Of a stretch of 58,145 nt of DNA, positions 2,176 through 51,563 are shown piece by piece; position 1 is the first letter of the stretch; each line of letters opens with the position of its first letter. A model generated the notes under the pieces. It did not search any database and was not told the DNA's origin. It saw nothing but the letters and a program-made list of their open reading frames with translations. A program made the position numbers and the translations under genes. Source of the stretch: Candidatus Zixiibacteriota bacterium (GTDB lineage: Bacteria; Zixibacteria; MSB-5A5; DSPP01); NCBI GenBank assembly GCA_022614805.1, contig JAKEHY010000031.1, forward strand, positions 1 to 58,145, in the 5' to 3' direction.

Positions 2176-2964
2176 ATGGCAGTTGATTTAAAGGAAATGC
2201 TGGAGGCCGGGGTTCACTTCGGCCACCAGACCCGCCGCTGGAACCCCAAGATGAAAAAATTCATCTTCGACGCCAAAGGGGGCATCTACCGCATCGATTT
2301 GGAAAAAACCGCCAGCGCCCTGACAAAAGCGCGCGAGGTGGTGCGCCAGACGGCGGCCTCCGGCGGGAGCCTGCTTTTCGTCGGCACCAAAAAACAAGCC
2401 AAGGAAGTCATCGAGCGAGAGGCGGCGCGCTCCGGCGCCTTTTACGTCACGGAACGCTGGCTGGGGGGGATGCTCACCAATTTCTCCACCATCAAGCAGT
2501 CCATCAAGCGGCTGAAGGACATCGAACGGATGCAGCAGGACGGAACGTTCGGAAAAATCACCAAGAAGGAAGGGCTGGAGCTGGAGCGGGAAGCCGCCAA
2601 GATGCTCAAGGTCTTGAACGGCATCCGGGAAATGAACCGAGTCCCCCATCTGGTTTACGTGGTGGACACCAAAAAGGAAAAAATAGCGGTGGCGGAGGCG
2701 AACAAACTGGGGATTCCCATCATCGCCATCGTGGACACCAACTCCGACCCGGAACTCATCACCCATCCGATTCCGGGGAACGACGATTCCCTCCGGGCCA
2801 TCGCTTTAATCACCAAAGAGCTGGCAGACGGCGCGGTGGAAGGGCGGGCGGTTTTGAAGGACAAACAGGAAGAGGAACAAACCCGCCGCCACGAAAAGGA
2901 AGCTAAGGACAAGGCGTTTCGGGACGCAAGGGAAGCGAGAGAGAAGGAAGTCAGAGCGAAATGA
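2176..2964 (+). CDS. rpsB: 30S ribosomal protein S2
   Basis: A 262-residue S2 starting [26 protein letters not shown], with the signature [15 protein letters not shown] and the P-site-proximal segment [26 protein letters not shown]. An extra charged tail of about 30 residues ([18 protein letters not shown]...) follows the core. The ribosome site AAAGGAG is well placed. The stop overlaps the tsf start (ATGA), the standard rpsB-tsf coupling. Confidence 0.97.
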
Positions 2965-3560
2965 GCACGGCAATTTCAGCCAATTTGGTGAAGGAACTGC
3001 GGGAGAAAACCGGCGCCGGGATGATGGAGTGCAAAAAGGCCCTGCAGTCTTCCGGCGGGGACATTGAGAAGGCGGTTCAGACCCTGCGGGAGCAGGGGCA
3101 GGCCCGGGCGGCCTCCAAGGCGGGGCGGACGGCGAAGGAGGGAATCGTTTTTTCCTACATTCACCCCGGCGACCGATTAGGCGTGCTTTTGGAACTGAAC
3201 TGCGAGACCGATTTCGTCGCCCGGACGGAGGATTTCCGCAATCTGGCCAAGGATCTGGCGATGCAGATTGCCGCGGCCTCGCCTTTGGTCGTCACCCGCG
3301 AGGAGCTGCCAGCCGAGCTGGTGGAAAAGGAACGGGAAATCTACCGCCATCAGGCCAAAAACGAGGGGAAGCCGGAAAAGATTCTGGACCGTATTGTCGA
3401 AGGGAAGTTGGAGAAGTATTTTCAGGAGGCGGTTCTGATGGAGCAGATTTTCGTCAAGGACCAGAACCTGACCGTGAAGGAACTCTTAAACTCGGCAGTG
3501 GCCAAGCTGGGGGAAAACATCGTTCCCCGCCGCTTCGTCCGCTTCCGGCTGGGAGAATGA
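2961..3560 (+). CDS. tsf: Elongation factor Ts (short form)
   Basis: A 199-residue guanine-nucleotide exchange factor for EF-Tu. The N-terminal UBA-like region reads [19 protein letters not shown], and the EF-Tu-contacting TDFV motif lies in [14 protein letters not shown]. The length matches the short Thermus-type EF-Ts with one dimerisation subdomain, rather than the ~280-residue E. coli form. Coupled to rpsB by a 4 bp overlap and followed 1 bp later by pyrH. Confidence 0.96.
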
Positions 3561-3561
3561 T

Positions 3562-4278
3562 ATGCCCGATTTGAAATACCGCCGGGTGCTCTTGAAGCTT
3601 TCCGGCGAAGCGCTGATGGGGGATAAAGGCTTCGGCATCGACCCGGAGGTGGTGACCGTGATCGCCCTTCAAATCAAGGAAGTGAAGGAAATGGGGGTGG
3701 AAATCGCCATCGTGGTCGGCGGCGGCAACATTTTCCGCGGACTCGCCGCGACCTCCTCCGGCATCGACCGGGCCACCGGCGACCAGATGGGGATGCTGGC
3801 GACGGTCATCAACGGCCTCGCTTTGCAAGACCGTTTGGAGAAGTTGGGGGTCTTCACCCGGGTGATGAGCGCTCTGCGGATGGAGGCGACCGCGGAGCCG
3901 TACATCCGGCGGCGGGCCATCCGCCACCTCGAAAAAGGACGGGTGGTCATCCTCGTCGCGGGCACCGGCCATCCCTTTTTCACCACCGACACGGCCGCCG
4001 CTCTGCGGGCGACCGAAATTGGCGCGGACGTCATTTTGAAAGCCACCAAGGTGGACGGGGTTTTCGACGCCGACCCGATGAAGGAGAAAAACGCCAAGAT
4101 GTACGACAAGCTTACCTATCTCGAAGTGTTGAGCCTGGGATTAAAGGTTTTGGATTCGACCGCCACCTCGCTCTCGATGGACAACGCTTTGCCCATCATC
4201 GTCTTCAATCTGAACCAGCGGGGAAATTTGAAGAAGGCGGTTTTGGGAGAGAAAATAGGAACCATCGTCCACGTTTAA
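3562..4278 (+). CDS. pyrH: UMP kinase
   Basis: A 238-residue amino-acid-kinase-fold enzyme converting UMP to UDP. It opens [15 protein letters not shown], followed by the [10 protein letters not shown] nucleotide loop, the [17 protein letters not shown] segment and [15 protein letters not shown]. Full length for bacterial PyrH. Its place between tsf and frr is the classic bacterial order. Confidence 0.97.
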
Positions 4279-4290
4279 CCGGGAGGGGAG

Positions 4291-4854
4291 ATGGACGTCG
4301 TAAAAGAGATATATCAGCGCGAAGAAGAGAAAATGAAAAAGAGCCTGGAGGCGGTCTCGCACGAGCTCGCCTCCATCCGCACGGGGAAGGCGACCACGGC
4401 GCTTCTGGACGCCATCCGGGTGGAGTATTACGGCTCGATGGTTCCGGTGAACCAGGTCGGCACCGTTTCGGCGCCGGAGCCGCGCCTTCTGACCATCCAG
4501 CCGTGGGAAAAAACGGTCCTCCCCAACATCGTCAAGGCGATTCAAAAATCGGAACTGGGGCTGAACCCCCAGTCGGACGGCAACATCATCCGGTTGCCGA
4601 TTCCGCCGTTGACCGAGGAACGCCGAAGGGACCTGGTCAAACTGGTGCACAAGCTGGCGGAGGAGGGGAAGGTGGCCATCCGGAACATCCGCCGGGATGC
4701 CGTCGAGCACGTCAAAAAAACCGAGAAGGAGAAGAAAATCTCCGAGGATGATTCCAAAAAAGCCCAGAAGCACATCCAGGAAATCACGGACAAGTTCATC
4801 GAATCGGTGGACAAGCTCATTGCCGGAAAAGAAAAAGAGATAATGGAAACTTGA
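4291..4854 (+). CDS. frr: Ribosome recycling factor
   Basis: A 187-residue L-shaped tRNA mimic that splits post-termination ribosomes with EF-G. Signatures are LASIRTGKATTALLD, VEYYGSMVPVNQVGTVSAPEPR, PPLTEERRRDLVK and VAIRNIRRDA. The ribosome site GGGAGGGGAG precedes the ATG. It is the last gene before a strong terminator at 4875. Confidence 0.97.
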   Translation: MDVVKEIYQREEEKMKKSLEAVSHELASIRTGKATTALLDAIRVEYYGSMVPVNQVGTVSAPEPRLLTIQPWEKTVLPNIVKAIQKSELGLNPQSDGNIIRLPIPPLTEERRRDLVKLVHKLAEEGKVAIRNIRRDAVEHVKKTEKEKKISEDDSKKAQKHIQEITDKFIESVDKLIAGKEKEIMET

Positions 4855-4930: not shown

Positions 4931-5665
4931 ATGCTGGAGGAACTGAAAAAAGAGATAAAAGAGCGGGGGAGCCTGCCCGTTCACATTGCCGTCATTATGG
5001 ACGGCAACGGGCGCTGGGCCAAACAGAGGAACCTGCCGCGCACGGAAGGGCACAAAGCGGGGGTGGAAGCCATCCGCAAAGTGGTTCGCACCGCCGGCGA
5101 AATGGGAATCCAGTACCTCACCCTTTTCGCCTTTTCGACCGAAAACTGGCGGCGTCCGAGGGAAGAGGTTTCCGCCCTGATGCAGCTTTTGTCCGACACC
5201 GCCCGGAGGGAATTGAAGGAGATGATGGACAACAACCTGCAGCTTAAAGCCACCGGCGACATCGAAGGGCTGCCTTACGCCAAGCGGCTGGCGCTTTCGC
5301 AGGCCATCAAAAAAACCTCCAAAAACACCGGCATCGTTTTGAACCTGGCATTGAACTACTCCGGCCGGTCGGAAATTCTTTCCGCCGTTAGAAAAATTGC
5401 GCGGGAGGCGAAGGAGGGGAAACTTTCCCCCGCCCGCATCGATGAGAAAATGTTCGAGTCCCATCTTTACACCAAGGGGCTGCCGGACCCGGATTTGCTC
5501 ATCCGCACCTCCGGAGAAAAACGGCTCTCCAATTTTTTGCTCTGGCAGGCGGCCTATACGGAACTGTATATTACCGAAACTTTGTGGCCCGATTTTGGAG
5601 AGCGGGAGTTTTTGATGGCCCTGGCGGATTACCAGAGCCGCCAGCGGCGATTCGGGAGGGTGTAA
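4931..5665 (+). CDS. uppS: Isoprenyl transferase (undecaprenyl diphosphate synthase)
   Basis: A 244-residue cis-prenyltransferase that makes the C55 carrier for cell-wall synthesis from FPP and IPP. The catalytic Asp24 lies in IMDGNGRWAKQR. Other marks are FAFSTENWRRP, the LNYSGRSEI segment and the C-terminal DLLIRTSGEKRLSNFLLWQ. Its stop abuts the cdsA ATG directly, so the two lipid genes form one unit. Confidence 0.97.
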   Translation: MLEELKKEIKERGSLPVHIAVIMDGNGRWAKQRNLPRTEGHKAGVEAIRKVVRTAGEMGIQYLTLFAFSTENWRRPREEVSALMQLLSDTARRELKEMMDNNLQLKATGDIEGLPYAKRLALSQAIKKTSKNTGIVLNLALNYSGRSEILSAVRKIAREAKEGKLSPARIDEKMFESHLYTKGLPDPDLLIRTSGEKRLSNFLLWQAAYTELYITETLWPDFGEREFLMALADYQSRQRRFGRV

Positions 5666-6538
5666 ATGGCGATTGACCCGAAAAACCTGGCCGTGCGGGT
5701 GGCGGTCTCCATCGTCGGCATCCCGGCGATTCTCTTCGTCTCGTGGCAGGGGGGATGGTGGTGGAGCGCTTTTCTGATGCTTCTCGCGCTCATCGGTTTC
5801 TGGGAATACTCCCGCATGACCAAACTTCCCGACTTTTTGCTTTTTTCCGGGTGGATTTTGGGGGCCGGGTATCTTTACCGGTTGTCGACCGGCTCCGTTC
5901 AATTTTTAGACGAGTTTCTTCTGCTCTGTTTTTTTGCCGTTGCCGCCTTTCTGGTTTTTCGCCGCAGGGTGGAGGGCTCCATCGCCGAAGCGGCCCATTT
6001 CATTTTGGGGATGATTTACATTCCGGGGCTTTTGGGATTCGGAAAAAGCCTGGAATTGTGGCTGCGACAGATTCCGGCGGGGGTCAACATCACGATCGGC
6101 GGCGAAGATTTGTTCCGCGTGACCGAGGTGCAGCCGCAGCTTTTGCTTTTGGTTTTTCTCTGGGCCGTCATCTGGGCCGCCGACACGGCGGCTTACTTCG
6201 TCGGTGCCAAGCTCGGCCGAAGGCATCCATTCCCGGCCATCAGCCCGAATAAGACGGTGGAGGGGTTTTTAGGCGGGTTCGCCGGAGCCGTAATCGCGGC
6301 GGTAATTTTCTTTTTGACAAAGAAGCTCGAATTCGGCTTGGGTTTTACAATCGGGCTCGCACTTACCATCGCGCTTTTTGGCCAGTTGGGGGATTTGTTT
6401 GAATCGCTTTTGAAGCGCAGCTCCGAGGTCAAGGACGCCTCCCACCTCATCGCCGGGCACGGCGGCGTTTTGGACCGGTTCGATTCCTTGCTTTTCGCTT
6501 TGCCAGCGGCGTATTTCTTTTTGGTATTTTTTGCTTAA
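5666..6538 (+). CDS. cdsA: Phosphatidate cytidylyltransferase (CDP-diglyceride synthase)
   Basis: A 290-residue multi-pass membrane enzyme making CDP-diacylglycerol from phosphatidate and CTP. About eight hydrophobic segments are visible. The C-terminal third carries SPNKTVEGFLGGFAGA and the family signature GQLGDLFESLLKRSSEVKD...GHGGVLDRFDSLLFALP. It begins immediately at the uppS stop. Two palindromes follow its stop (6541-6610). Confidence 0.96.
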   Translation: MAIDPKNLAVRVAVSIVGIPAILFVSWQGGWWWSAFLMLLALIGFWEYSRMTKLPDFLLFSGWILGAGYLYRLSTGSVQFLDEFLLLCFFAVAAFLVFRRRVEGSIAEAAHFILGMIYIPGLLGFGKSLELWLRQIPAGVNITIGGEDLFRVTEVQPQLLLLVFLWAVIWAADTAAYFVGAKLGRRHPFPAISPNKTVEGFLGGFAGAVIAAVIFFLTKKLEFGLGFTIGLALTIALFGQLGDLFESLLKRSSEVKDASHLIAGHGGVLDRFDSLLFALPAAYFFLVFFA

Positions 6539-26887: not shown

Positions 26888-27430
26888 TTAGTTCCTGTTG
26901 CGGAGAAAATGTTTTCCGACCAGCCATCCCAACCCGTAGCCGACCGGCATCAAGGCCAAAGCATAGAAGGGGAGAAAGACAAAGGCGATGACGGCGGTGG
27001 AAGAACCGCCTGCGGGGTTGAAAACGTCCATCCAGACGACCAACTGGATGAAAAGGGATAAACCGAAAACGGCCAGTCCGGCAAAGAGGATGCCCCATTT
27101 GTGCGGCAAAAAGGAGTTCGGCTCTTCGGCGGCGCTGATTCGGTAGCGCCAGCGGGTCATAAAGGCGAATACAACAAAGGGGATGGCGTTTATCAAACCG
27201 AGGAGGAAGAGATTGTGGCCGGAGGCAAAGAGCAAAGTCGGGAAGCGGGTCAGAATCGGGCCGATTTGGTCTGGCTTGTAAAACGACTCGACGGCGATTC
27301 GGACGAGCCAGGGGAAGACAAGACCAAGAAGGATTATCCCCCAAAAGTTTTTTCTCGAAAATTGCGGCGGCGCGGCGGTTGCGGCGGCTGGGATGGCGAC
27401 GATTATCTCTTTTTCCGTTTGGTTTTGGAT
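26888..27430 (-). CDS. Four-helix membrane protein with probable AUC start, overlapping the Lon-like gene
   Basis: The first in-frame conventional start codon (TTG 27235) would cut off a convincing N-terminal part that includes the helix NFWGIILLGLVFPWLVRIAV. Extending upstream, the frame stays open into the 3' end of the Lon-like gene with no ATG, GTG or TTG. ATC at 27428-27430 sits 5 nt after GAGGAGG and would give a 180-residue protein (QNQTEKEIIVAIPAAATA...). AUC initiation is an inference; a frameshift or the later TTG are alternatives. Function unknown. Confidence 0.55.
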   Translation of the reverse strand: MQNQTEKEIIVAIPAAATAAPPQFSRKNFWGIILLGLVFPWLVRIAVESFYKPDQIGPILTRFPTLLFASGHNLFLLGLINAIPFVVFAFMTRWRYRISAAEEPNSFLPHKWGILFAGLAVFGLSLFIQLVVWMDVFNPAGGSSTAVIAFVFLPFYALALMPVGYGLGWLVGKHFLRNRN

Positions 27431-29922
27431 AGTTTCCTCCTCTGTTTGGTTTTGTTTGGAGTTTTTCCCGGTTTGGGGGGTACTTTTTTGGGCTCTTTGG
27501 CGGCCGGTTTTTTCTCCTCCTCTTCTTTCGGCGGCGAGGTTTCCTTCAGGTATTCGCCGAACTCCTTCAGCCGTTTTTCGACCAGAAAATTGACCGTCCC
27601 TGCCGGATACTTTCCATCCTTTCCCCGTTTCCCGGCGGGGACGCCGGTCAAGACCTCAATCCCCTCCTCCACCGTTTTCACCCCCCAGGCGCGGAATTTT
27701 TTGGCCTTCACCGCCTGCAGCACTTCCTCCTTCAGCATCAAATGCTCCACGTTGCTCGCGGGAATCATCGCTCCCTGACTGCCGTTTAGCCCCTTGGCCT
27801 TGCACAGTTCATAATGCCCTTCGATTTTTTCATTCACCCCGCCGATGGCCTGCACTTCCCCCTTTTGGTTGACCGAGCCGGTGACGGCAATTCCCTGCTT
27901 GATGGGCAAACCGGACAGGGCCGAGAGAATGGCGTACAGCTCGGTCGAAGAGGCGCTGTCCCCTTCCACCCCTTCGTAGCTCTGCTCGAAAACCAGCCGG
28001 GCGGAAAGGGTCAAGGGCTTGTCCTGCGCATATTTTTGGGCCAGGTAGCCGCTCAAAATCATAACCCCCTTGCTGTGAATCGGACCGCCCAATTGAACCT
28101 CCCGCTCGATGTCCAGAATCGCTCCGCGGCCGGGGGCGACCGAGGCGGTTATGCGGGAAGGCTTGCCGAACTCGTAATCCCCCAACTGGAGAACGGAAAG
28201 GCCGTTCACCTGCCCCGCCGTCTCTCCAGCCGTGTCGATGAGGAACGTCCCGCGCAAAGTCATCTCCTGCAGCTTTTCCTGAATCAGATTGGAGCGGTAC
28301 ACCTTTTCCTCCAGCGCCTTTTGCACGTGCGCGGCGGTGATGTGGGAATTTTTTCCCTGCTGCGCCCAGAAGTTTGCTTCCCGAATCAAATCGGTCAGCC
28401 GGCCGAAGTTGGTGGAAAGCTTTTTCTGGTCTTCCGCCATCCGGGCGGATTGCTCCAAAAGTTTGGCCGCCGCCTCCGCATCCGGATGCTTCAGCTTCTC
28501 CTTCTCGCAGAGAGTGCAGAAAAAGGAGAGGAATTCCTGCACGGTCTCTTTGCTCGCTTCGATTTTGGTGTCGAAATCGGCCCGGACTTTGAACAGTTCC
28601 GCAAATTCCTCCTCGTTGGCGTGCAAGAGGTAATACCAGAGGGGCTGGCCGACGAAAACGACTTTGAGGTCCGTCGGAATGGGCTCGGGTCGCATACTTT
28701 TGGCGGCGGCGAAGCCCATCCGCTCGCCGATTTCCTCGATTTCAATTTCCCGCCCGCGCAAGGCGCGCTTGATGCCGTCCCAGCTGAAGGCATTGCGCAA
28801 AACGTCCTCCGCCGGCAAGACCAAATACCCGCCGTTGGCGCGATGGAAGGAGCCGGATTTTATCAGGGTGAAATCGGTGTAGAGGGTGCCGAAGCGGCTT
28901 TCCTTTTCCACCCGCCCGAACAAATTGGCGAAGTTGGGATTGAATTCCAACACCACCGGCGCCCCTTTTTGGCGGGAATTGTCCACCAGCAAATTCACCT
29001 CATATTTGCGGAATGGAAGGTCGTCCATAAAACCGGGGGGGAGGCCCAGCTGTTCCGGCCCCGGCCGCTGGGGAGGCGGGGGCTTGAAGGTGTCGATATT
29101 TTCCAGAACGTCCTTTTGCACCGCTTTCAGGTAATTCACCACCTCCGGCGAGGTGGCGTAGCGTTCGATGATGTCTGTGACGAACCCGCCGACGATGAAA
29201 AGGGCGACCTCCTGGTCGACCTGCGAAAGTTTTTCCTGGGCGGCGCGCTCCAGGTCGCGGATTTTTTTCATCACCCCTTTCAGTTCTTCCTGCAGCCCTT
29301 CCTGTTTTTTCAAAAGGGCCTCCCGTTCGGGGGGCGGGAGGGCGGCGAAATCCTCGTCTTTCATCGGCTTCCCCTGCGCCATCGGGATGATGAGAAAGCC
29401 GGCCGGGTTGGGCTGGATGCCGAAGCCGGCTTTGAAAACCTTCTGGTCCAGCTCCTGCAGAAAGGCGCCCCGCTCGGCGTCCACTTTTTTGACGATTTCC
29501 TCCCGCCGGGCGGCGTATTTTTCCCCTTCGAACGCTTTGGGGATTTCCCGGCGCAGATGGTCGATTAAATTCCTCATATCCAGAAAAAATTTCCGCCCCC
29601 GGCCGGGGGGCAATTGAATCGCTTTGGGCTTGCCGGGCTCGTCGAAGTTGTTGACGTAGCACCAGTCGGGCGGCACCGGGCGGGTGGCTGCCAGCTCTTC
29701 CAAAAACGATTTCACCGCAGACATCTTGCCAATGCCCGGCGGCCCGGCCACGTAGATGTTGAACCCCTGCCCCTTGATTCCCAGCCCGAACTGCAGGGCG
29801 GAGACGGCCCGCTTTTGCCCGATGATTCCCTTGAGCGGCTTCAACTCGCCCGTATGGGCAATCCCCAGCGCCTTGGGGTCGTAGGTGCGGCGGAGTTTTT
29901 CGGGAGGAAGTTCGGGTATCAT
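27403..29922 (-). CDS. Lon-like ATP-dependent protease (AAA_32/LonC type)
   Basis: An 839-residue protease without the Lon N-terminal substrate domain. The P-loop is GPPGIGK (60-66), but the usual following Ser/Thr is Met67. A helical insertion follows (about 105-300). The C-terminal Lon protease domain has catalytic Ser656 in GVEGDSASS and Lys699 in GGVNEKIEG, the same 43-residue spacing as E. coli Ser679/Lys722. A basic low-complexity tail (PPKPGKTPNKTKQRRK...) closes the protein and overlaps the start of the downstream gene. Confidence 0.9.
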   Translation of the reverse strand: MIPELPPEKLRRTYDPKALGIAHTGELKPLKGIIGQKRAVSALQFGLGIKGQGFNIYVAGPPGIGKMSAVKSFLEELAATRPVPPDWCYVNNFDEPGKPKAIQLPPGRGRKFFLDMRNLIDHLRREIPKAFEGEKYAARREEIVKKVDAERGAFLQELDQKVFKAGFGIQPNPAGFLIIPMAQGKPMKDEDFAALPPPEREALLKKQEGLQEELKGVMKKIRDLERAAQEKLSQVDQEVALFIVGGFVTDIIERYATSPEVVNYLKAVQKDVLENIDTFKPPPPQRPGPEQLGLPPGFMDDLPFRKYEVNLLVDNSRQKGAPVVLEFNPNFANLFGRVEKESRFGTLYTDFTLIKSGSFHRANGGYLVLPAEDVLRNAFSWDGIKRALRGREIEIEEIGERMGFAAAKSMRPEPIPTDLKVVFVGQPLWYYLLHANEEEFAELFKVRADFDTKIEASKETVQEFLSFFCTLCEKEKLKHPDAEAAAKLLEQSARMAEDQKKLSTNFGRLTDLIREANFWAQQGKNSHITAAHVQKALEEKVYRSNLIQEKLQEMTLRGTFLIDTAGETAGQVNGLSVLQLGDYEFGKPSRITASVAPGRGAILDIEREVQLGGPIHSKGVMILSGYLAQKYAQDKPLTLSARLVFEQSYEGVEGDSASSTELYAILSALSGLPIKQGIAVTGSVNQKGEVQAIGGVNEKIEGHYELCKAKGLNGSQGAMIPASNVEHLMLKEEVLQAVKAKKFRAWGVKTVEEGIEVLTGVPAGKRGKDGKYPAGTVNFLVEKRLKEFGEYLKETSPPKEEEEKKPAAKEPKKVPPKPGKTPNKTKQRRKLSKTKRKKR

Positions 29923-30005
29923 ATTTTGATTATATCAAATCAGGGGATTTGGGGCAACGGTTTTGGGTTGTGTTGGATGTAACTTCTGGTGCAACAAAAA
30001 TGGTG

Positions 30006-30740
30006 CTACTCGGTTTTCTTTTTCTTTGTTTCTTTTAGTTTTCGAGAGGCACGTTCAGCAGGATTGATATAAACATAGCGAATAATTTCTCGAAGAAAAT
30101 TAACAGCATAGTCGGCTTCTTCAGGAGTCACTTCCTCCCATTCTGGATGTGCACCGGACCGTCCGATTACCCGTAATTCCTCTGCCCACTCCCATAAATC
30201 AGGGGTAATGAGATGATTTTCTTTAAGAAATTTCAATTGTTCATATAGATCCTTTCCCGTGGCACCCTTATTTTGACAAAGCGAATGGATTGCTCTTCTG
30301 GTCATTACGCCACAGGCGTTGAAAGCCCTGACCGACAAACATTTTTCTGCTTCTATGGCCGCCTTCTTTATTTCATCCGGGACAGAATCGTGAATAATTG
30401 GCGTGGCAATAGGATACTGGTGGATGATTTTCGCATTTTCTTCTGCGATGGGCGGTTGACCTAAGGAGGTGGGTCCTGGCGACCAATCACCCGGCTTTCG
30501 ATGAATAGCTACATAATTTTGAAAGAGAATGTATGTATGTTTCTTGCAATTGACACACTCAAAAATAAAATGTTGCAATTGTACGTCGGTTGGATACTCT
30601 TGACCGTCTTTAGCTTTGATGACAATTTCCTCTTTGTATTGTGGGAGGGCTTTAGTCGGTTCGAGCTGAATGTGCAAGCTGTGGATTCCACAATGAGGGC
30701 ATAGAAAGTTTGGCTTGTCGTTCATCCAAGTGAATGGCAT
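30006..30740 (-). CDS. DUF4145 domain protein with zinc-ribbon-like N-terminus
   Basis: A 244-residue soluble protein. Two CxxC pairs (CPHCG near 14-18 and CVNCK near 62-66) suggest a zinc ribbon. The C-terminal half, AAIEAEKCLSVRAFNACGVMTRRAIHSLCQ to RSGAHPEWEEVTPEEADYAVNFL, is DUF4145-like, a helical domain frequent in restriction and other defence loci. AT-richer than the core genes. It is the third gene of a minus-strand cassette with the pYEATS-like and membrane genes; the gap to the pYEATS gene is 31 bp. Confidence 0.7.
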   Translation of the reverse strand: MPFTWMNDKPNFLCPHCGIHSLHIQLEPTKALPQYKEEIVIKAKDGQEYPTDVQLQHFIFECVNCKKHTYILFQNYVAIHRKPGDWSPGPTSLGQPPIAEENAKIIHQYPIATPIIHDSVPDEIKKAAIEAEKCLSVRAFNACGVMTRRAIHSLCQNKGATGKDLYEQLKFLKENHLITPDLWEWAEELRVIGRSGAHPEWEEVTPEEADYAVNFLREIIRYVYINPAERASRKLKETKKKKTE

Positions 30741-30771
30741 TTTAATTTTGCATTAGATTTTTTTATTATTC

Positions 30772-31449
30772 TCAAAACTTGAGTTGATGTTTTAACTTTT
30801 GAATTCGTCCGTTTTTGAATATCAGACGAATTCCGATCTCAAAGGTTCCCCATCCCTTGGTGGTAAATGGGAACGCTTGAACCCCTGATCCTCTTTTGCA
30901 TACCGTTCGGATGGGATTCGGAAAGGTAGGATGAAGGGTGTATTCAACACAACGAACCTGGGCGAGAGCTTGCTCAGACCCTTGTACGTACACCGTCCAT
31001 TCCCACCAGCCCCTGCTTATTTTTCTTGCTATGTTGCTGGCGGTGATGGGAAGGGTGTCACTGGATGGCTGGTCAAAGGTCAGCCGGTGTTTCAACTTCC
31101 GAGACGTTTTGTTTTTAAGAAAAACTTTAATGGAAATATCGAAAACTCCCCAGCCTTTGCTGCTCAACGCGAAGGGGTATCGGAGGTTGCCAATCTGGCG
31201 CACCGTTCGAACCGGGTTGGGAAATGTAGGGTGAAGGGTGTATTCCACACTGTCAATGTCGTTGAGATTCCGGAAGGATGGATTGATGAATACCGTCCAA
31301 TCCCAGCGACCATTGCCGATATATTGTGAAGTGTTGCGGGCCGAAAGTTCCTGAGCTTGGCTGTGGGGTGTGAGTGTGCTGGCAACCAACGCCGTCGCTA
31401 CGAATCGGAAAAACCAAGAATTAATGCTGGTTTTTACCTTCTTTGGCAT
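30772..31449 (-). CDS. Exported protein with two tandem pYEATS-like domains
   Basis: A 225-residue protein. A signal peptide (cleavage near SQA-QE, ~32) precedes two copies of a ~95-residue beta domain. Each copy has W.WTV, then VEYTLHPTFPNP (68-79 and 168-179), then KGWG.F.I (98-106 and again near the C-terminus) and KLKH.L.F. This is the YEATS fold pattern in its prokaryotic form (pYEATS), a domain noted in predicted bacterial conflict systems. An exported double version is odd because eukaryotic YEATS domains read acyl-lysine inside cells. The second copy has a Cys (RCVEY). Confidence 0.7.
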   Translation of the reverse strand: MPKKVKTSINSWFFRFVATALVASTLTPHSQAQELSARNTSQYIGNGRWDWTVFINPSFRNLNDIDSVEYTLHPTFPNPVRTVRQIGNLRYPFALSSKGWGVFDISIKVFLKNKTSRKLKHRLTFDQPSSDTLPITASNIARKISRGWWEWTVYVQGSEQALAQVRCVEYTLHPTFPNPIRTVCKRGSGVQAFPFTTKGWGTFEIGIRLIFKNGRIQKLKHQLKF

Positions 31450-31450
31450 G

Positions 31451-31942
31451 TTATGGAACCCTTGACAACTCTACCTGAGTTGCAGGGACCTCTTTTTCAC
31501 CGCTCACCCATTGGATACTCGAGTCAGTTGAGTCAGTGGCCTCGATTCGGTAACGATACCCTTGTTTTAGATTTGGAAGGATTATTGAAATTCTCCCTAC
31601 CTCAACGGTTATTTTTGACAGGGTAACAGGTTCCGGAATATCGGTGATATTTTCTCTTACCCACGCGACATAGTGAAGTCTTCGGGGATCTACGTTGCTC
31701 GTGTCAGAAAAAATAGGGGTGATAGGCAGCTCGTAGGACTTTGTATCGGTTTTGTATTCAAGAAAAATTCCTGCACCAATAGCCCCTGCACCTATGAGGA
31801 GGACGAAGGCCAGCATATTGCCTTTGAATCCGAGGCCCTTTTGGCTGATGTCGAGCATTACGCGCCCTTTTCCCAGAAGCTTGCCCCATACAAGGCCAAC
31901 TACAATTATGATTATTCCGAGGATAATTAGAAAAATTGGCAT
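31451..31942 (-). CDS. Membrane protein heading the pYEATS cassette
   Basis: A 163-residue protein with two hydrophobic helices (residues ~3-24 and ~44-62, MLAFVLLIGAGAIGAGIFL). A ~100-residue extracytoplasmic region follows, with a fibronectin-III-like ending (NLKQGYRYRIEATDSTDSSI, SGEKEV). It ends 1 bp before the pYEATS-like gene starts, so the two are surely one unit. I do not recognise a family. It may anchor or receive the exported pYEATS protein. Confidence 0.6.
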   Translation of the reverse strand: MPIFLIILGIIIIVVGLVWGKLLGKGRVMLDISQKGLGFKGNMLAFVLLIGAGAIGAGIFLEYKTDTKSYELPITPIFSDTSNVDPRRLHYVAWVRENITDIPEPVTLSKITVEVGRISIILPNLKQGYRYRIEATDSTDSSIQWVSGEKEVPATQVELSRVP

Positions 31943-32111
31943 ACAGTACCATTGACCTGATGTTCAGATTGACGCACATTTTGGAAGTTATACGAATGGC
32001 CTAATTCTGTCAACCAAGCATTTGAATTCGGGGAATCATTTCTATTTTCTTGCCTGCACCCCAAAAATTCTTACCTTATATGCTTTCGTTTTTGCGGTAA
32101 CGGGAGGATAG

Positions 32112-35100
32112 ATGCGCAAACTTGGGTTGGTTCTGACAATATTTTTTGCTTCGGGCGCTTCTGCTGAATATTGGCAGCAGAGGGTGGATTATAAGATTAA
32201 GGCGACGCTGAACGATTCCACCCGGGTCATCAGCGGAGTGGAGAAGCTGGTGTATTGGAATAATTCGCCGGATACGCTCAACTTCGTCTATTTCCACGCC
32301 TACCCCAACGCCCACCGGAAGGGCTCCCGGATGGAAAAACGCCAGCGGAGCTTTTATCTCTTTGGGCTGGCGGATTCCAAGCCGGACGAATGGGGGGAGA
32401 TGAAGATTGAATACGTAAGAGGCGCTACGTCAAGCTGGAACCTCCCGATTGAAATGGACGAAACAATCTTCAAGGTTCACCTGCCTTCCCCTCTGGCGCC
32501 GGGGGATTCGACAGTCTTCGACTTCGGCTTCCAGACCAAAATCCCCTCCGGCGATGCGGCGGGACGGACGGAATACAAAGACGGGCAGTTCAAGGCGGTC
32601 TATTGGTATCCTTCGATATGCGTTTATGACTGGAAAATGGGATGGGTCAACAACCAATATCTCGGCTCCGGGGAGCATTACGGCGAGTTCGGCGCCTACG
32701 AAGTTTACATAACGCTGCCGGCGCACTACGTCGTCGCCGCCACGGGAGTTCTGCAAAACCGGAAAGAGGTGCTGCCGGATTCGCTGCGGGAAAAGCTGGA
32801 CATTCAGCTTTTCAAAGACAAGAAATGGAATTCGGATGCCGGCGTCATCATTCCGAAAGTTCCGGGCGCAACGAAAACCTGGCGTTTCAAAGGGGAAAAC
32901 ATAACCGATTTCACCTGGGTGGCGGACCCGACTTTTCGCATCGGCGAAGCGGAATGGGAGGGAATCAAAATTTACAGCTTTGCGCAGGAAAAGCACGCCG
33001 CCCGCTGGCAGACGGCGGCGGAAGTTGGCCGGCAGGGAATCGAATACTTCTCCAAAAATTACGGCCGCTATCCCTACCCGCAGATGAGCATCACCGACAG
33101 CGATGACGGGATGGAATACCCGATGATTGTGCTCTGCGGCGGGGAATCGCCGTCCTATCGCTTACTCATCTGGCACGAAATGGCCCACAACTGGTATATG
33201 GGGGCGGTCGGCTCCAACCCGGTGGACCGGGCCTTTTTAGACGAGGGGTTCACAACATTTTTGGAAATCAACGTCATCGAAGCCCTGCACGGGAGGAAGG
33301 GAAACGTTTCCTTCTGGGATACGAAGTGGAAGAAGAAGTTCTACCCGGTGGATGAAGACCGGGCGGCGCGGGGCTACCGGGATTATCTCCATTTGCACAA
33401 GACCGGGTTCGCCCAGCGGATGATTATCGAAGCCGACCGGGCGCCGGAGCGGATGGTGTACCGCGTTTCCTCCTACTACAAAACGGTGGTTCTGCTTTTC
33501 AATCTGCAATACGCGCTCGGGGATTCGGTTTTCGCCCGGGGGATGAAAAACTACTTCGAACGCTGGCATTTCAAACATCCGTACGAGGAGAATTTCCAGG
33601 CGGCAATGGAGGAGGCCGCCGGAGCCAAGCTGGAGTGGTTTTTTGACCAATGGATTAACACCAACCGGACGGCGGACTACGGCATCGGCTCCATCCTTCG
33701 CAGCAAGCCAACCGGCAAAACGGGGGATTCAGCTTTCCTCGTGACGGGGAAAATCTACCGCTCCGGCGAATTGGTGATACCTGTCGACTTGGGGTTCAAG
33801 TTGAAAGACGGCTCGGCCCGTTATTTTACGATTCCCGTCAACGATTATCGCAAACCTGTTTATCCCGAGCAGGGTCGAGGGAACCCCACATGGAAATTTC
33901 TCCCCATCTGGGACCAGGTGCGCTTGCCGGAAAAAGAATATCAGTTTCAAGTTTATCTGCCGGCGAAACCGAAGGAGGTGGAAATCGACCCCTCCGGGCG
34001 GCTGGCGGACGTCAATCCCTTGAACAACCGCTGGAGGGGTTTTCCGAATTTCCCCAAAGCGGATTTGCAGTTGAACAATTTGCGGACGGACGTTCTGCCG
34101 GTGGACCGCTACCACTTCATCTGGCGGCCGTCGCTTTGGTATAACCGGGTCGATGGAGTGATGTTGGGGGCCAATCTGCAGGGGAGCTATCTCGGTCTGG
34201 ACCATGCTTTCACCCTCGACGGGCTGAAGGCGACGAAGGAGTTGGAGCGAGGGAATGTCGATTTTTCCTACTCAACTCCGGTCGGTTTTTTGGGAAGAGG
34301 TGGAAGGTTTTTCGGCAAAACGCGGTTTCTCGAAGGGAGAGGATACTACGAATATGGTTTTGTTAAAGAGCATAGACCCCGCCAGCTTTTTCCTCCTCTA
34401 CATCGCTTGAGTGTATCTTGGGTTAGTGAAAAATTAGTCCAGCCAGAATATCTATCCGCCTTCGGTGCTTGGTCGGTCAAAAACGAAAGAGCCTCGTTTG
34501 TGCGCTTGAGGTGGGATACGGAATTCCGGATGGGCAAAGCCAAGTTGAATTTTGGTGTAGGTGAAGAAGACGCTGTTTTTGGCAGTGACTTTGATATCCG
34601 TCGGGGATGGGGCTATTTGGAAGTAAGGACGCCAATCGGGAAAAAATTTGACTTATATTTGCGCACTTTCGGCGGTTTGGGGAAACGAAATGCTCCGTCG
34701 CAAAAGCGATTTTATCTCGCCTCGGGAACCCCCGAAGATGCGTTGGATGTGCCCATCGTCCGCAGCCGGGGGGTGGTCCCGACCCGGTTTTTAGATAATG
34801 TTCGATTGACAGGCGGGGGCAACGTGCGGGGGTTTTACGCTCAAAATTTATCCGGCGATGGGGTTGCCTCCGCCACCCTGGAGCTGACCTTTCCCCGGTT
34901 CGTATCGTTCAAATTTATGCCCAAAATTCCGCTTTTGACCGCTTTTTTGCAGAATTATTCCAACTACGTCTTTGCCGACTTCGGGGCCCTCGGGCACTAT
35001 CGGGGGGTGTCTCCCAACGAGTTGGATGATGAACTTGACATAAAGGGGTATTTTGACTTGGGAGCCGGGCTGCTTTTTCCGCACGTCTGGCCCAAGCACC

Positions 35101-35195
35101 GGTTTCGGTTGGACTTCCCCTTTTACCGCTACCCGAAGTTGGGAGAGGATAATTTTCGGTTCCGGTGGGTAATCGGTTGGGAGGTGGAGGTTTGA
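32112..35195 (+). CDS. M1-family metallopeptidase fused to an outer-membrane barrel-like domain
   Basis: A 1027-residue exported protein. A signal peptide (1-18) leads an M1 N-terminal beta domain and a gluzincin catalytic domain with HEMAH (355-359) and the third ligand Glu378 in FLDEGFTT. The GGMEN-type exopeptidase motif is replaced by DDGMEYPMIV. From ~residue 640 the sequence becomes alternating aromatic/polar strands ending in RLTGGGNVRGF, FADFGALGHYRG and GAGLLFPHVWPKHRFRLDFPFY, like the Omp85/surface-antigen barrel C-terminus. It may be a peptidase tethered by its own barrel. Confidence 0.82.
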   Translation: MRKLGLVLTIFFASGASAEYWQQRVDYKIKATLNDSTRVISGVEKLVYWNNSPDTLNFVYFHAYPNAHRKGSRMEKRQRSFYLFGLADSKPDEWGEMKIEYVRGATSSWNLPIEMDETIFKVHLPSPLAPGDSTVFDFGFQTKIPSGDAAGRTEYKDGQFKAVYWYPSICVYDWKMGWVNNQYLGSGEHYGEFGAYEVYITLPAHYVVAATGVLQNRKEVLPDSLREKLDIQLFKDKKWNSDAGVIIPKVPGATKTWRFKGENITDFTWVADPTFRIGEAEWEGIKIYSFAQEKHAARWQTAAEVGRQGIEYFSKNYGRYPYPQMSITDSDDGMEYPMIVLCGGESPSYRLLIWHEMAHNWYMGAVGSNPVDRAFLDEGFTTFLEINVIEALHGRKGNVSFWDTKWKKKFYPVDEDRAARGYRDYLHLHKTGFAQRMIIEADRAPERMVYRVSSYYKTVVLLFNLQYALGDSVFARGMKNYFERWHFKHPYEENFQAAMEEAAGAKLEWFFDQWINTNRTADYGIGSILRSKPTGKTGDSAFLVTGKIYRSGELVIPVDLGFKLKDGSARYFTIPVNDYRKPVYPEQGRGNPTWKFLPIWDQVRLPEKEYQFQVYLPAKPKEVEIDPSGRLADVNPLNNRWRGFPNFPKADLQLNNLRTDVLPVDRYHFIWRPSLWYNRVDGVMLGANLQGSYLGLDHAFTLDGLKATKELERGNVDFSYSTPVGFLGRGGRFFGKTRFLEGRGYYEYGFVKEHRPRQLFPPLHRLSVSWVSEKLVQPEYLSAFGAWSVKNERASFVRLRWDTEFRMGKAKLNFGVGEEDAVFGSDFDIRRGWGYLEVRTPIGKKFDLYLRTFGGLGKRNAPSQKRFYLASGTPEDALDVPIVRSRGVVPTRFLDNVRLTGGGNVRGFYAQNLSGDGVASATLELTFPRFVSFKFMPKIPLLTAFLQNYSNYVFADFGALGHYRGVSPNELDDELDIKGYFDLGAGLLFPHVWPKHRFRLDFPFYRYPKLGEDNFRFRWVIGWEVEV

Positions 35196-50762: not shown

Positions 50763-50790
50763 CCGGCTACTTTTCGGATTCTGGGGTCAT
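50763..50790 (-). pseudogene. Broken duplicate of the 5' end of the membrane-protein gene
   Basis: Reads ATGACCCCAGAATC then stops at TAG after seven codons (M T P E S E K). It matches the start at 50679 with few changes. Its ATG overlaps the stop of the HEPN gene (ATGA). It marks a duplication of the gene start around the HEPN insertion. Confidence 0.6.
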
Positions 50791-51563
50791 CGGGTTTTCC
50801 ATCTCTTTTTATTTCTATCCTCAACAAACTCACGAATTTTATCAAGATTTCTCATGTTCTCAGCTTGAAATCCCCCCGGATAAAGAATGATGGCTTGTAG
50901 AATACACCATTCGGGGAGGGACATCCCAACCAAATTTGCAAGGGCAATGTGAGTATTATCAACTTTTAAATCCGGATCTTCGTGCAAGATTTTGTTCCTA
51001 GTATCGACTATTGTTTCAAATAAGGAAACAATTGAGCCTTCGAACCAATCAAGGTTTAGTTTTTCATCAAAGTATATGTATTTCTCTTTAACCGTTTTTC
51101 GATCCAACGATTGCACTTCTCTTTCTATTTCATCTTCTATGATTCGATCTGGACCTAAAGCCACCAGCTTACCTAGAGGAATCTGCCGATCTTCTCTGAG
51201 GAGAGTCGGTTTTTGACGAAGCACTTCTCGATGGATATCTTTTAGTGCCGATTCAATTAGTGCAACTTGGAGTATAAGTCTATTCTGATACAATCGGTTC
51301 TTGAGGTCGTGACTGAAAACCTCCTCATAGACGCTTTTGAAAGTTTCCTTTGCCTCCTTTGATAGCGCCCAATTTTTAAACGTTTCTAATTCTGATTCTT
51401 TTGCAAATTTAGAGACGATATCAGTAAATCTCTTTAGTTCTTGTTGTCCCATCCGGTGAAGGTTTTTCTCTTTTGACTGGAAATCGTCAAATACTTTTTC
51501 CGCTAAGCCAAACTGAAAGCAGGTTATCGCAAAACGATCTATATACTGATTTTCTTTAATCAT
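50787..51563 (-). CDS. HEPN-like protein, possible RNase
   Basis: A 258-residue, mostly helical protein, clearly AT-richer than its neighbours. Arg189-x4-His194 (DTRNKILHED) fits the HEPN R-x4-6-H active site. The preceding helix VALIESALKDIHREVL, with acidic residues, is usual for HEPN domains of abortive-infection or toxin type. No MNT nucleotidyltransferase antitoxin is adjacent. A stand-alone stress or defence nuclease is possible. Confidence 0.55.
   Translation of the reverse strand: MIKENQYIDRFAITCFQFGLAEKVFDDFQSKEKNLHRMGQQELKRFTDIVSKFAKESELETFKNWALSKEAKETFKSVYEEVFSHDLKNRLYQNRLILQVALIESALKDIHREVLRQKPTLLREDRQIPLGKLVALGPDRIIEDEIEREVQSLDRKTVKEKYIYFDEKLNLDWFEGSIVSLFETIVDTRNKILHEDPDLKVDNTHIALANLVGMSLPEWCILQAIILYPGGFQAENMRNLDKIREFVEDRNKKRWKTR

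Follow-up and report, generated by a model that had tools for sequence, protein, structure and literature searches.

A predicted exported tandem YEATS protein and its two-helix membrane partner: a recurrent gene pair in distant bacterial lineages

Introduction

In the nucleus, YEATS domains read histone acylation; their bacterial counterparts are predicted to act as intracellular sensors. The prokaryotic family (pYEATS, PF20305), as treated by Burroughs and Aravind in 2020, reportedly supplies the sensor parts of predicted intracellular immune systems. A gene that appears to encode an exported protein with two such domains lies in the window, by which we mean the whole 58,145-nucleotide stretch of Zixibacteria DNA analyzed here (contig C32 of genome G000). 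Two questions follow from this locus: what a YEATS domain might do outside the cytoplasm, and whether the genes on either side, one for a membrane protein and one for a DUF4145 protein, belong with it to a single system. The class of G000 also includes genome G117, the locus of which matches the Candidatus Zixiibacteriota record CP070766.1.

Results and Discussion

Three minus-strand genes of low GC content

The three open reading frames are all located on the minus strand. The first (31451-31942) encodes a membrane protein of 163 residues with two transmembrane (TM) segments, the second (30772-31449) the 225-residue tandem pYEATS protein, identified by Pfam and by AlphaFold2 modelling, and the third (30006-30740) a protein of 244 residues assigned by Pfam, which combines a zinc ribbon with a DUF4145 domain of the HEPN clan. 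The intergenic gaps measure 1 bp (membrane/pYEATS) and 31 bp (pYEATS/DUF4145), as expected from the tight arrangement reported in a preliminary description of this DNA. The low GC content noted there was also borne out: the values are 0.455, 0.484 and 0.430 for the membrane, pYEATS and DUF4145 genes, respectively, versus 0.555 for the whole window, and their GC3 values (0.45, 0.54 and 0.40) fall below those of the genes on either side (0.67-0.75), a composition that appears foreign.

A tandem YEATS protein with the eukaryotic fold

Within the 225-residue protein, Pfam detected PF20305 in two stretches (E 8.7e-43; 144.5 bits against a cut-off of 26.9), together with PF03366 (E 4.7e-35; 119.8 bits against a cut-off of 22). 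Profile and model place domain 1 at about residues 37-125 and domain 2 at about residues 137-225, and the two copies of VEYTLHPTFPNP, described earlier as lying 100 residues apart, start at residues 68 and 168. A phmmer search against PDB sequences retrieved Yaf9 (6.4e-9) and GAS41 (about 1e-7, aligned to domain 2), as well as Taf14, AF9 and YEATS2.

An AlphaFold2 model built from seven relatives (pLDDT 83.7, pTM 0.61) contains two beta-sandwich domains with pLDDT values mostly about 90. The absence of a YEATS fold, which would have overturned the initial assignment, was not observed: among the structural matches listed, all 50 PDB entries are YEATS domains (Z 10.5-12.4), headed by YEATS2 (Z 12.4, rmsd 2.3 over 97 residues) and including GAS41 (Z 12.3). 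An old tandem duplication was considered as the origin of the two domains and was set aside, the tree grouping first and second domains loosely and with low support.

Conservation of the acyl-lysine cage

In GAS41, acetyl-lysine is held by H71, S73, Y74, W93 and F96. G92 and G94 lie at this pocket as well, and binding is lost in the mutants W93A and G94A (PMC5995911). According to the phmmer alignment, H71, S73, Y74, G92, W93, G94 and F96 of GAS41 correspond to H173, T175, F176, G199, W200, G201 and F203 of domain 2 (cage segment at residues 173-203, positions 30841..30933, minus strand). Domain 1 carries the same set, namely H73, T75, F76, G99, W100, G101 and F103 (residues 73-103, positions 31141..31233, minus strand), and in both domains the S and Y of GAS41 are replaced by T and F, respectively. 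Among 19 domains, the cage positions are conserved as H in 18, T/S in 19, F/Y in 18, G in 18, W in 17, G in 17 and F in 19. Partial loss was seen in domain 2 of locus L019 and domain 1 of locus L022, and in each case the sister domain keeps its cage. Because these residues are kept, recognition of an acyl-amide would be the most economical function for the pYEATS protein of the pair.

The exported YEATS protein might instead be a structural or protein-binding beta-sandwich, serving at the surface, in adhesion or in envelope assembly, with no reading of acyl groups. Exported pYEATS domains are also appended to caspase-PEGA proteins, to a papain-like peptidase and to other envelope proteins, as would be expected of a general binding module, and the cage can be lost from one domain of a tandem. 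Yet the most conserved columns include those of the cage loops as well as the core positions, and we regard a purely structural role as unlikely.

Signal-like N-termini and a cysteine pair

The tandem pYEATS protein begins with a signal-peptide-like stretch, with likely cleavage between SQA and QE after residue 32. In all pYEATS members of the pair, as well as in the caspase proteins, a hydrophobic N-terminal stretch follows at least one positive residue, and most of these N-termini carry an AXA-type cleavage site; signal-like N-termini are absent from the cytosolic pYEATS proteins examined in the epimerase and TIR settings. The suggestion of an exported double YEATS protein thus holds in both its parts, the two domains being recognized by Pfam and the signal-like N-terminus being kept in distant relatives.

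A cysteine pair shows a related pattern. C167 and C184 of domain 2 face each other across predicted hairpin strands (residues 165-171 and 180-183), and domain 1 has neither cysteine, with S67 and R84 at those positions. In all 35 pYEATS domains collected, the two cysteines are either both present or both missing. They occur in 17 of 22 domains taken to be exported or anchored versus 0 of 11 taken to be cytosolic (Fisher p 2e-5, ignoring relatedness), where the cytosolic group consists of ten domains plus that of L008, added by eye, the exported group includes the L074 domain by assumption, its N-terminus being unread, and three domains of unclear location were set aside. C167 and C184 may form a disulfide, which would imply an oxidizing compartment. 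Export of the tandem protein is well supported by the signal-like N-termini and the cysteine pattern taken together. Acyl-lysine readers are intracellular, and since the sequence indicates export, the protein is classed here as a YEATS-domain protein rather than as an intracellular reader.

The two-helix membrane partner

No family in Pfam, NCBIfam, PADLOC or PHROG matched the 163-residue membrane protein. It comprises TM1 (about residues 3-19), a positively charged loop (20-43), TM2 (about 44-60) and a C-terminal Ig-like beta-sandwich (67-163) predicted to lie outside the cytoplasm, in agreement with the first description of two helices and an extracytoplasmic domain. The loop between the helices contains four to five K/R residues in every relative, and K/R residues before TM1 are lacking in all relatives but one; by the positive-inside rule, the loop would be cytoplasmic and the C-terminal domain would face outward. 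The window and L019 show this charge bias clearly, the other relatives more weakly. The model (pLDDT 83.8) resolves the Ig-like domain, which matches only generic Ig-like folds (best Z 7.1) and is for this reason given no family name. Most relatives have a longer, coiled-coil-like stretch before it. No homology was detected between this ectodomain and the C-terminal domain of the TIR proteins that adjoin pYEATS genes elsewhere.

These features bear on a further reading, in which the signal-like N-terminus of the YEATS protein is a membrane-tethering helix and both the YEATS domains and the C-terminal domain of the partner remain in the cytoplasm. The topology is itself a prediction, and the weak charge bias in several relatives leaves it some room; the AXA-type cleavage sites in most relatives and the paired cysteines, which cytosolic pYEATS domains lack, nevertheless make a cytoplasmic location very improbable.

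Recurrence of the membrane/pYEATS pair

A contig scan with a profile of two tandem pYEATS proteins yielded 15 relatives. At loci L018, L019, L020, L021, L023 and L028, a gene encoding a two-TM protein lies immediately upstream of the pYEATS gene, and sampling of the phylum of L028 added the pair of L071. Counting the window, this brings the pair to eight loci, which span five lineages: Zixibacteria (the window and L019), Acidobacteria (L018 and L023), a Syntrophaceae bacterium (L020), Thiomargarita of the Gammaproteobacteria (L021) and Myxococcota (L028 in Corallococcus, and the sampled L071). Coupling of the two genes is tight or translational: they overlap by 4 bases in L019, L021, L028 and L071, and are separated by 1-7 bp at the remaining pair loci. 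The membrane proteins align as one divergent family, with 17-28% identity to that of the window, and a profile of this family yielded a single gene from every pair-bearing genome that was searched. In a sample of 791 genomes from the phyla to which L018 and L020 belong, the same profile found no convincing copy beyond the known pairs; its weak matches in L062-L065 were rejected as PilO-type and other proteins with apparently chance similarity.

Regardless of partner, PF20305 was detected in 9 of 132 genomes from the phylum of the window, 3 of 395 from that of L020 and 5 of 195 from that of L028. Five of these 17 genomes (G000, G117, G133, G139 and G1042) bear the pair. The linkage is partly ascertained, since the eight loci came mostly from pYEATS-led searches. 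At L022, an exported double pYEATS protein was observed with no membrane partner found. In G581 (L068), another of the 17 genomes, one polypeptide joins a pair of TM segments to a beta domain and a pYEATS domain; its N-terminal half was compared with the membrane family and no homology was detected, so this single chain offers only an analogy to the pair. The two-gene module is real and recurrent, and places a familiar domain where it was not expected.

The neighbors of the pair in other genomes are mostly ordinary genes, and it lies mostly outside evident defense islands. A phage or plasmid origin was rejected, with no match to the pair in phages or IMG/VR; one plasmid match to pYEATS, in Stanieria, represents an anchored single pYEATS outside any pair. 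In the L023 locus (Acidobacteria gp13 genome), two small genes (5460-6199) lie upstream of the pair, one of them encoding a DUF4257 protein.

The DUF4145 gene and its variable slot

Identification of the third protein as a zinc-ribbon/DUF4145 protein was sustained by PF13643 (E 3.4e-18; 65.9 bits against a cut-off of 23.1) and by the ribbon motifs CPHC (residues 14-17) and CVNC (62-65). DUF4145 is one of the HEPN families, and its Rx4-6H motif is mostly conserved (80%) (PMC3710099). The corresponding segment in the window protein reads RVIGRSGAH, with G193 at the canonical Rx4H arginine position, which renders RNase activity doubtful; its nearest relative has RIIGRHGAH. The protein resembles PD-T7-4 of PADLOC over residues 9-200 (E 8.5e-9, 33 bits, for a profile given no curated cut-off) and the phage protein family phrog_1305 over nearly its full length (8.8e-33). 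PD-T7-4 is an anti-phage protein (PMC9519451), named once in the main text of that paper, where DUF4145 does not appear; the likeness to it and to phrog_1305 concerns the third gene only. DUF4145 homologues were absent from viral contigs, and distant matches comprised two phage and six plasmid sequences. The closest relative among 58 genomes searched (G030, 58% identity) has a DUF3800 gene nearby and is not accompanied by the pair.

The block occupies an AT-rich slot (29960..32101) between genes for a Lon-like protease (27403-29922) and an M1 peptidase (32112-35195). In the congener G001, the same flanking proteins (87% and 84% identity, respectively) are separated by about 2 kb of DNA unrelated to that of the window, with about 43% GC. 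The G001 slot (L047, G001:C42:62000-69800, at 2538-4373) holds small helix-turn-helix genes and a gene for a protein matching PDC-M34B of PADLOC (7.6e-26), with an RNIVGH motif of the Rx4H type. Judged from these two genomes, the slot is a site that takes up accessory, partly defense-like DNA. This speaks for past mobility of the block and makes chance adjacency of the pair and the DUF4145 gene explicable. Elsewhere in the window, a 258-residue open reading frame (50787-51563, minus strand) lies in an AT-rich stretch (44% GC) and has no Pfam or PADLOC match.

The question of a single three-gene system can thus be addressed. Such a system would be directed against phage: the membrane/YEATS pair would sense infection at the envelope and the DUF4145 HEPN protein would act as cytoplasmic effector. 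The genes are co-directional, share low GC and are only 31 bp apart at this junction, with no terminator-like minus-strand site between the pair and the DUF4145 gene; moreover, the latter resembles PD-T7-4, the slot carries a defense candidate in the congener, and TIR-like genes adjoin cytosolic pYEATS genes in Nitrospira and Acidobacteria-type genomes. Against this, no DUF4145 gene adjoins the pair at any of the seven other loci, the closest relative of the DUF4145 protein occurs without the pair, the catalytic arginine of the HEPN motif is replaced by glycine, and the pair's other neighborhoods are mostly ordinary. An anti-phage trio is accordingly improbable, and on the eight loci compared the trio is rejected as a conserved unit. 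Of the gene order expected to recur, only the membrane/pYEATS part does so, in five lineages without DUF4145, and the proposal that the three genes form one system is not supported. Its suggested role in conflict fares unevenly, with some support for the slot and the DUF4145 gene and little for the YEATS pair. By comparison of these loci, the DUF4145 gene is a neighbor in a variable slot and not a conserved part of the pair, probably a separate accessory gene of mobile, anti-phage character.

Proposed role of the pair

The pair itself is, in our assessment, probably a two-gene extracytoplasmic module that forms a membrane-anchored binding complex, although this is favored by a modest degree only. 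The membrane protein would be anchored by its two helices in the inner membrane, and the exported two-YEATS protein would dock on its outward Ig-like domain. The complex might then sense or tether an acylated amine outside the cytoplasm, be it an acyl-lysine carried by a protein of the envelope or of foreign origin, or some other N-acyl group; this is the most likely activity because the aromatic, hydroxyl-lined cage of eukaryotic acyl-lysine binding is kept. The fuller proposal, that the tandem YEATS protein reads such a group and signals to, or tethers via, its two-TM partner in a rare but phylogenetically wide system, is put forward tentatively.

The window protein shares with the eukaryotic readers (GAS41/YEATS4, Yaf9, YEATS2, Taf14 and AF9) the fold, detectable sequence similarity and the cage H T F G W G F. 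It differs from them in its predicted export, its tandem domains, its membrane partner and the lack of a histone context, and many pYEATS domains further possess the conserved cysteine pair. It belongs to the same PF20305 family as the pYEATS of immune systems, far above the curated cut-off; unlike those, it is predicted to lie outside the cytoplasm and has no consistently adjacent enzyme effector. The literature searched, which did not take in the main pYEATS paper, contained no prior description of the membrane/pYEATS pair and neither of the terms pYEATS and "prokaryotic YEATS", and the novelty of the pair is for that reason provisional. Its recurrence in distant phyla with an intact pocket points to an undescribed extracytoplasmic sensor. 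If so, acyl-amide recognition would extend to the bacterial envelope, where the pair would parallel the histone-acyl readers outside the cytoplasm, and it would offer a small, testable system for finding ligands of prokaryotic YEATS domains.

Other settings of pYEATS domains

Several other arrangements were encountered. The exported caspase-like peptidases of L024 (5699-7327) and L025 (5654-7303) each carry a fused pYEATS, and PEGA domains were recognized in that of L024. They share the signal-like N-terminus, cysteine pair and intact cage with the window protein; unlike the pair, each is a single polypeptide with its peptidase and has no two-TM partner. In L073 (G937:C51), an exported papain-like peptidase combines two pYEATS domains with a C-terminal stretch that resembles an outer-membrane beta-barrel. 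Six genomes of Zixibacteria family f9 (L010-L015) encode a cytosolic single pYEATS beside an NAD-dependent epimerase-like gene, a stable arrangement without the look of a defense locus. In L029-L032 (Nitrospira, Solibacteraceae, Bryobacterales and Bryobacteraceae), a cytosolic pYEATS gene directly follows a TIR-like gene, which in L029 matches TIR_2 (2.8e-9) and, weakly, ThsB; these two genes together constitute a candidate conflict system.
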